Source: Salinisphaera sp. LB1 (lineage in GTDB: Bacteria > Pseudomonadota > Gammaproteobacteria > Nevskiales > Salinisphaeraceae). Taken from it: a DNA stretch of 64,000 nucleotides. Where the stretch lies: positions 2,976,001-3,040,000 of the forward strand of contig NZ_CP029488.1 in NCBI RefSeq assembly GCF_003177035.1, in the 5' to 3' direction. Of the stretch, positions 23,757 to 24,050 are shown in pieces. The notes under the pieces are model-generated. The model was not told where the DNA came from, did no database searches, and saw nothing but the letters and a program-made list of their open reading frames with translations. The position numbers were made by a program, and so were the translations under genes. How positions within the stretch are numbered: position 1 is the first letter of the stretch; each line of letters begins with the position of its first letter.

Positions 23757-23833
23757 AGGCGCGTAGCTCAGTTGGTTAGAGCGCTACCTTGACATGGTAG
23801 AGGTCGCTGGTTCGAATCCGGCCGCGCCTACCA
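23757..23833 (+). tRNA. tRNA-Val (GAC)
   Basis: A 77-base cloverleaf. Acceptor AGGCGCG pairs with CGCGCCT, discriminator A, CCA encoded. The anticodon stem CTACC/GGTAG encloses TTGACAT, giving anticodon GAC. The T arm contains GGTTCGAATCC. The last 22 bases are repeated 175 bases downstream. Confidence 0.97.
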
Positions 23834-24008
23834 CTTTCGCTGATTCGCGGTGAAAGCCGTGGATTGTAGTGTGGCGATAGATCGTGGGATTCTCACCAGC
23901 GACCCTTCGGGTCGCGGTTGTCGCCTTCTCGCGAAGGCGATCCTTCGGACTCCCTGCGGTCGCGCTACACCGCTGGTGCGGTGTTGTCGAATCCGGCCGC
24001 GCCTACCA
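23834..24008 (+). repeat. 175-bp unit ending in an exact copy of the tRNA-Val 3' end (rtT-like arrangement)
   Basis: Bases 23987-24008 repeat the tRNA-Val 3' terminal 22 bases (23812-23833) exactly, including CCA; the copies are 175 bases apart. The 153 bases between contain compact stems: GCGACCC/GGGTCGC (23899-23905 with 23909-23915), TCGCCTTC/GAAGGCGA (23921-23928 with 23933-23940) and CACCGC/GCGGTG (23968-23973 with 23978-23983). A strong terminator follows the second copy, so the unit is probably transcribed with the tRNA. The arrangement recalls the E. coli tyrT operon, where roughly 178-bp repeats each begin with part of the tRNA-Tyr 3' end and yield rtT RNA. No protein frame here is convincing. 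Confidence 0.75.
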
Positions 24009-24021
24009 GAATCGAAGAATC

Positions 24022-24050
24022 AGCCGTCGGCTCTCGCCGGCGGCTTTTTT
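24022..24050 (+). terminator. rho-independent terminator after the tRNA-Val repeat unit
   Basis: AGCCGTCGGC (24022-24031) pairs with GCCGGCGGCT (24036-24045) with one G-U pair and loop TCTC, followed by a run of six T. It lies beyond the repeated tRNA tail, so the repeat is inside the predicted transcript. Confidence 0.88.

Follow-up and report, generated by a model that had tools for sequence, protein, structure and literature searches.

The 175-nt unit that follows the tRNA-Val(gac) gene of Salinisphaera sp. LB1 is, in our judgment, probably a tRNA-linked repeat (TLR) with its core in the opposite orientation, which is transcribed and processed, and is carried as a mostly dispensable passenger on a highly transcribed, conserved locus. 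The evidence comes from the window, i.e., the whole 64,000-nt stretch of DNA analyzed, from the rest of this genome, and from covariance model scans of the genus, family, order, class and phylum.

In the accessible part of the main source, TLRs are described from E. coli, where 22 of them are found at ten loci, three behind 5S rRNA, and where the last 18–19 bp of each repeat duplicate the 3′ end of the tRNA or rRNA that precedes it; they have been reported since 1978, without an agreed function (PMC8144298). Further sources, likewise accessible in part, describe RtT RNAs in Pasteurellaceae, with Northern signals in Actinobacillus (PMC4986893), and rtT as a 175-bp VNTR between two strains of Salmonella Paratyphi A (PMC2658671). 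No inverted-core TLR is named in the literature searched, to which subscription papers largely did not belong, and absence from print is not established.

Results

A 175-nt unit between tRNA-Val and thrS

The gene order at the locus is uvrB (21609–23639), tRNA-Val(gac) and thrS (24124–26031), with the repeat unit between the latter two (Table 1). As noticed in the original prediction, the last 22 nt of the tRNA, CCA included, recur with a period of 175; the copy is exact (22 of 22 nt identical), the repeat search found no other 22-nt direct repeat with copies at most 400 nt apart in the window, and none arose in 50 second-order Markov simulations of the window, which confirms that the repeat is real. 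The sequence past the second copy agrees with the post-tRNA sequence of G001, a relative without the unit, at 51 of 60 nt, vs 34 for the start of the unit. A degenerate second tRNA-Val gene was considered and rejected: by eye, the bases 5′ of the second copy are unlike tRNA apart from a T-arm-like stretch.

Table 1. Features of the tRNA-Val locus (positions in the window)
Feature	Position	Strand	Basis
Likely tRNA-Val promoter (TTGCCG, 17 nt, TATCTT)	23715–23743	+	by eye
tRNA-Val(gac) gene	23757–23833	+	ARAGORN; Rfam RF00005 at 23757–23830, 71.5 bits
First copy of the 22-nt repeat, T loop to CCA, within the tRNA	23812–23833	+	repeat search
TLR unit, 175 nt: spacer, apparently inverted core, tRNA 3′-end tail	23834–24008	+	period, sister homologues, comparison with G001
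GCCGTGGATTG, like the 5′ half of the T arm (GCCGTGGTTCG in G002 and G006)	23856–23866	+	by eye; resemblance only
Inverted copy of the tRNA variable loop and T arm	23887–23904	-	inverted-repeat search; 89% complementary to 23802–23819
Hairpin CGACCC-UUC-GGGUCG	23900–23914	+	folding; helix 3 of alignment A7
Hairpin TCGCCTTC...GAAGGCGA	23921–23940	+	folding; helix 4 of A7
Hairpin ACACCGC...GCGGTGT, P1 of the putative inverted core	23965–23984	+	sister-species consensus; helix 6 of A7
Putative inverted TLR core, R2 match (L005 1724–1795)	23923–23994	-	15.5 bits
Second copy of the 22-nt repeat, the TLR tail	23987–24008	+	repeat search
Intrinsic terminator past the unit	24022–24051	+	10-bp stem with 8 G-C pairs, then T6

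A consensus scan of 22500–25500 missed the promoter-like pair, which was read by eye; a TTG ... GTA(T/C) pair, also recognized by eye, stands 5′ of tRNA-Val in the 13 same-genus loci displayed. On the + strand, the scan of the same interval returned terminator-like sites at 24022–24045, with T6, and a weaker one at 24402–24421 inside thrS (4 such sites on both strands vs 2.1 expected from shuffles) and none between tRNA-Val and the unit, so that the claim of a strong terminator only past the second copy holds.

The unit folds at −88.6 kcal/mol, vs −66.3 in shuffles (sd 4.1; z −5.5). Three hairpins had been predicted in the spacer, and all three were located (Table 1), but the bases of the third pair otherwise in the lowest-energy fold of the window sequence itself, that hairpin being seen in the sister-species consensus. 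The inverted T-arm copy is absent from the original prediction. When the whole transcript (23757–24051) is folded, the tRNA 5′ strand is paired, at the lowest energy, with the second, distal version of the 3′-end sequence, so that competition between two alternative 3′ halves of the tRNA is possible.

Judged by the features of published TLRs, which number one to five units per locus downstream of a tRNA or rRNA gene in its operon, the unit lies downstream of a tRNA and probably within its operon, as a single unit (two in the relative G009), and has no + strand terminator-like site in front of it. To these features we added relatedness of the core to that of other TLRs; such relatedness was found only in inverted orientation and, in this genome, weakly.

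A family of repeats related to E. coli rtT

When the 46 tRNA genes of the genome were scanned for a downstream copy of their own last 22 nt, seven (Arg-tcg, Arg-ccg, Arg-tct, Arg-acg, Tyr, Gln-ttg and Val-gac) were found to have one, with at most 4 mismatches, 166–183 nt further on. The units behind the Arg, Tyr and Gln tRNAs have a core in common (class A), in which the T arm's 5′ half, as far as nt 58, is followed by four hairpins (the third most often CCCGAAGGG), CGAATA or a near variant, and tRNA nt 59–76, in what we take to be the usual tRNA numbering. Besides the Val unit, the genome holds 14 TLR cores at Arg, Tyr and Gln tRNAs, 2 of which are located 5′ of the tRNA (L118, L119, L120, L122, L133, L141). 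A gapped core pattern found only 2 of these 14, and covariance models were used instead: R1, from 13 units of this genome, and R2, on the 39 cores of alignment A6 (see below). The count of R2 matches in the genome was at least 15, vs 14 for R1; on recheck, these were the same 14 and two antisense fragments. In the Arg-tcg array, two unit types alternate as ABAB, and the last tail is decayed. Two tRNA-Gln-like copies with an altered anticodon region lie 5′ of tRNA-Gln(ttg) (L141, minus strand, about 1640–2120), each with a TLR core in the T loop.

The E. coli tyrTV rtT repeats carry the class A core: R1 finds the three rtT units at 37.2, 35.5 and 32.6 bits. These matches are independent, unlike those of R2, because A6 holds one E. 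coli row. Conversely, the Rfam RtT model (RF00391) places two Tyr units of the genome above its gathering score of 45, at 65.9 and 59.3 bits, with the Gln (43.3), Arg-ccg (30.7) and Arg-tcg (24.9 and 24.3 bits) units below this cut-off; it has no match to the Arg-tct and Arg-acg units, none in the window at the gathering score, and none for the Val loci L005 and L010 at E up to 1. Thus, Rfam RtT covers only part of the TLR family. The likeness to the E. coli tyrT operon from which the original prediction started amounts to a kinship of the family as a whole. Its emphasis on an unrelated tRNA points to nothing new in itself, given the range of loci occupied in E. coli, 5S rRNA included (PMC8144298).

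The Val unit resembles the E. coli TLRs in copying the 3′ end of the upstream RNA (18–19 nt there, 22 here), in its length within about 150–180 nt, in occurring as one to several units and in combining a stable-RNA operon with a structured spacer, and differs from them in the apparently reversed core and the tRNA-Val(gac) host, the comparison being with the three rtT units among the 22 E. coli TLRs. With RtT it shares the order of tRNA, ~175-nt unit and tRNA 3′ end, but not the match to the model that the Tyr units show. The 3′ETS-leuZ sponge RNA of E. coli, likened here by description and not by sequence, also derives from a tRNA 3′ trailer; the accessible part of the source does not mention a 3′-end repeat for it (PMC8144298).

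Apparent inversion of the Val core

Scanned with R2 at E up to 10, the tRNA strand of the Val units (7 units, 6 species) gives no match. Antisense to the tRNA, R2 matches 6 of the 7 units, in 5 of the 6 species, with 24.8 bits in G011, 23.1 in G002, 19.5 and 17.9 in G009, 17.8 in G006 and 15.5 in G000, the genome of the window; this last match is weak (E 0.011–0.029), and the decayed unit of G005 has none. In the reciprocal comparison, R3, the covariance model of the Val units, matches class A units of this genome on the reverse strand, at best with 21.6 bits (E 2.3e-4), then with 14.3 (E 0.018), the rest being weaker; on the tRNA strand, it yields three fragments of 15–24 nt with E above 1. 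Hairpins look alike on both strands, and caution is due with antisense matches: R1 and R2 also match two normal class A units in antisense, at 21–24 bits, but these matches cover model positions 9–52 only, whereas the Val matches span 1–86.

Taken together, the scans suggest that the Val unit is a TLR whose core appears to be inverted relative to its tRNA. The likeness to rtT stands at the level of TLR class, and the rtT reading is essentially right; what had not been foreseen is that the core is not in sense and that a TLR core match is found on the opposite strand only. The original interpretation as a whole is thus partly supported.

A pair of tandem, full-length copies of tRNA-Ser(gga) lies beside the intact gene in G001 (L321 and L323, G001:C35), with a T-loop insert of about 230 nt (by eye) and doubled hairpins. 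These copies are matched by R3 in reverse (30.8 and 28.9 bits) and by R2 in sense (27.8 and 26.0 bits).

Variation of the Val locus within the genus

The genus survey searched 14 genomes, and its counts are out of 13 because G007 gave no readable Val locus. The unit is present in 6 of the 13 loci (G000, G002, G006, G009, G011 and, decayed, G005), i.e., homologous units occupy the same position in five sister species, and it is absent from the other 7 (G001, G003, G004, G008, G010, G012 and G013). A comparison of relatives had been suggested to see whether the unit is variable in copy number or absent; it is both, and in G009 two units of 175 and 174 nt stand in tandem. The scan with R3 agrees with this pattern of presence and absence. 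The tail tracks its own tRNA, in that the sister loci have CCGGC or CCACT in the T stem and the identical letters in the tail. The inverted T-arm copy also co-varies with the T stem (CCAGC in the window; CCACC in G002, G006, G011 and the first G009 unit).

These loci bear on the alternative offered in the original prediction, namely, that the unit is a satellite, or a scar left by integrase-mediated excision, at a tRNA attachment site. Indeed, tRNA 3′ ends serve as attachment sites, and the 22-bp direct repeats run from the T loop to the CCA. Nevertheless, this origin is very improbable and we reject it: the sister loci differ in having one unit, two or none; homologous, covarying units, some in tandem arrays, recur in many species; none of the 9 PF00589 hits of the genome falls within 15 kb of the seven TLR-bearing tRNAs, the nearest lying about 17 kb from tRNA-Arg(tct); and no phage record covers 80% of the tRNA-plus-unit query, the 20 listed of 69 records matching about the tRNA part only.

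Units of the Val type outside the genus

In the order, R3 has matches in 26 of 85 genomes; this count takes in normal units that R3 matches in reverse (the G001 Ser copies and one in L430), so that the genomes with inverted cores are fewer. Fourteen R3 loci were fetched from outside the genus. In 9, the R3 match shares its strand with a tRNA that has a further copy of its 3′ end, with 0–2 mismatches, the hosts being Val-gac five times (G014, G022, G032, G068 and G079), Phe-gaa, Arg-acg, Pro-cgg and Asn-gtt; the search for tRNAs found none in the other 5. These 9 hosted loci, which together with the Val units we call class B, span three families of the order, the window's own included. Across the 14 loci, R2 has 9 matches, each opposite in strand to that of R3: 6 are antisense to the tRNA with the recurring 3′ end, 2 are in loci without a tRNA and 1 is in sense. 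The latter (L430, 3135–3189) is located behind tRNA-Ser and thus is a normal unit met by R3 in reverse. An antisense R2 match is present in 5 of the 9 hosted loci, and at E up to 0.1 R2 finds nothing in the other 4 (L420, L422, L425, L426). The inverted-core variant appears, from these model matches, to be present also in two related bacterial families.

In alignment A7 of class B, which was fitted to the model and of whose 24 rows 7 are the model's own, 94.1% of the cells are paired, vs 75.5% when shuffled; in the same model-fitted alignment, G.T pairs outnumber A.C by 71 to 15 on the tRNA strand. By stability, the tRNA strand is favored in all 7 genus units, vs 4 of 16 outside the genus. Thus, the strand tests favor the tRNA strand in class A (see below) and disagree in class B.

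Conservation of the class A core

R1 gave 136 matches; subtraction of 11 duplicates from overlapping loci and of 2 antisense fragments leaves 123, 3 of them from E. coli. For 103 of the 120 non-E. coli units, the host tRNA is upstream in the locus, and 99 of the 103 were used for the nearest-relative count. For A6, the units were thinned to 44 at 90% similarity and 5 broken, truncated or aberrant ones were left out, which yields the 39 rows, one from E. coli. Across its 30 pairs, 92.8% of the cells are paired, vs 77.5% when shuffled and 27–36% when slid; 18 pairs change on both sides, with 156 double-change cells vs 48; and the covariation measure is 0.387 vs 0.137, no shuffle being as high. 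The pair-type count is weaker (45 vs 41, with 32 of 500 shuffles as high).

This covariation is among the arguments for a functional small RNA, i.e., a trailer that acts in trans (through Hfq or CsrA, or by RNA pairing) or in cis on tRNA maturation, the tail being a 3′ processing signal. We consider this account possible but rather doubtful for the Val unit. In class A, G.T pairs exceed A.C on the tRNA strand by 91 to 13, and the tRNA strand is the more stable in 34 of the 39 cores (28 by z-score); this bias makes it likely that tRNA-strand RNA is of importance in class A. At the Val locus, the promoter-like pair and the terminator at the end of the unit would place it in the tRNA transcript, and the 5S-linked TLR RNAs of E. 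coli (rrA, rrB and rrF) are described, in the accessible part of the source, as transcribed, processed and bound to CsrA and Hfq (PMC8144298). Against a functional RNA stand the 7 sister loci without a Val unit, the apparent tolerance of core inversion and the inexact tails of most last units (see below). Moreover, a run of T5 or longer intervenes between the tRNA and the first core in 16 of the 34 Arg arrays and in 9 of the 16 Gln arrays (none of 10 for Tyr), yet transcription of the 5S-linked TLRs, rrB included, reportedly proceeds by read-through of the first terminator, whereas an early starvation phenotype of rtT was later retracted, again as far as the accessible text goes (PMC8144298).

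Spread of the family and fate of the tails

The family extends well beyond this genome. R1 has matches in 15 of 17 genomes of the family, and R2 in 37 of 85 genomes of the order, 100 of 370 sampled in the class and 50 of 397 sampled in the phylum, where 20 lie outside the class and 19 of the 20 belong to a single family; the order, class and phylum scans used stricter filters, the latter two are samples, and single matches are those among the matches listed. TLR cores outside the class include those in L351–L356, L358, L412–L416 and L418. From these scans we assembled a wide set of 109 fetched loci, mostly high-scoring ones and not a random sample, with 170 units in total; L357, which duplicates L401, was excluded. 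In this set, the 17-nt tail is identical to a same-strand tRNA 3′ end, in most cases that of the upstream tRNA, for 88 of the 170 units; 25 tails differ at 1–3 sites and 27 at more, and 30 have no tRNA on that strand. The exact hosts comprise 16 tRNA species, for Tyr, Gln, Ser, Arg, Lys, Pro, Thr, Glu and Asp. In a further count, by place in the array, 35 of 42 inner, 17 of 32 single and 6 of 29 last units have exact tails, i.e., 23 of the last ones are inexact (inner vs last, Fisher p 1.5e-7, with related rows). Three tandem TLR cores behind tRNA-Gln(ctg) in G010 (L231), 210 nt apart, have a common tail unlike the tRNA 3′ end.

The range of hosts speaks for a selfish element at the DNA level, spreading via the 3′ ends of stable-RNA genes, with hairpins recognized as single-stranded DNA by some enzyme and with free orientation. 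Other observations point the same way, namely, the placement of the class A core between tRNA positions 58 and 59 (by eye, with numbering from general knowledge), the tRNA-Ser copies with a T-loop insert and the tRNA-Gln-like copies 5′ of tRNA-Gln, the occurrence of both core orientations, and the near-identity (0.92–0.94) of the Arg-tcg and Arg-ccg cores of this genome; the accessible part of PMC2965389 describes, in Enterobacteria, rtT-like elements that lie apart from tRNA genes and are counted among the BIMEs. We regard such an element as unlikely, however. The pattern is mostly vertical: leaving aside their own array, 63 of 99 units have their nearest core at the same tRNA of a different genome, vs 12 of 99 at another tRNA of the same genome, with some exchange between Arg genes. 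The G.T over A.C bias on the tRNA strand is a further counterargument, though single-stranded DNA could also yield it, and the enzyme candidates examined were integrases only.

Discussion

In the reading that we favor, a transcribed and processed passenger with an inverted core, transcription would run from the tRNA-Val promoter to the terminator past the unit, the tRNA would be cut out in the usual way, and the ~175-nt trailer, with its tRNA-like CCA tail, would be freed as a small, structured RNA, in the way already described for some TLRs of E. coli. A processed RNA of ~175 nt is a plausible prediction from the sequence, and a regulatory role for it is possible, but under this reading the RNA would be dispensable and the element largely a passenger. 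We propose that recombination between the tail and the tRNA 3′ end, which are direct repeats, is the main reason why the copy number varies and the tail remains identical to the tRNA. That tails are exact in inner and rarely in last units is as expected if they owe their exactness to recombination with the tRNA, or to duplication, and not to need; terminal tails, no longer refreshed, would decay. The proposal that the tail is an RNase E signal, found in the accessible text of PMC8144298, is a rival to this recombination account.

For class B, the inversion speaks against a role strictly as sense RNA. As a point against the inverted-core reading itself, toleration of an inversion would be odd if the core acted only as the RNA of one strand. 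A broader hypothesis, which we advance tentatively and think unlikely, is that TLRs form one family, built on an orientation-free hairpin module at the T-loop junction of partial or full tRNA copies, and are mobile parasites of stable-RNA genes and not small RNA genes, in Gammaproteobacteria and at least one other class. If this were true, the Val inversion would show that a TLR core need not work as sense RNA.

Whichever account prevails, the natural inversion separates sense-RNA function from explanations at the DNA level or by passenger status. With 290 core matches (120 in the family set and 170 in the wide set), a defined junction, strong covariation and this natural inversion, the function of TLRs becomes testable.
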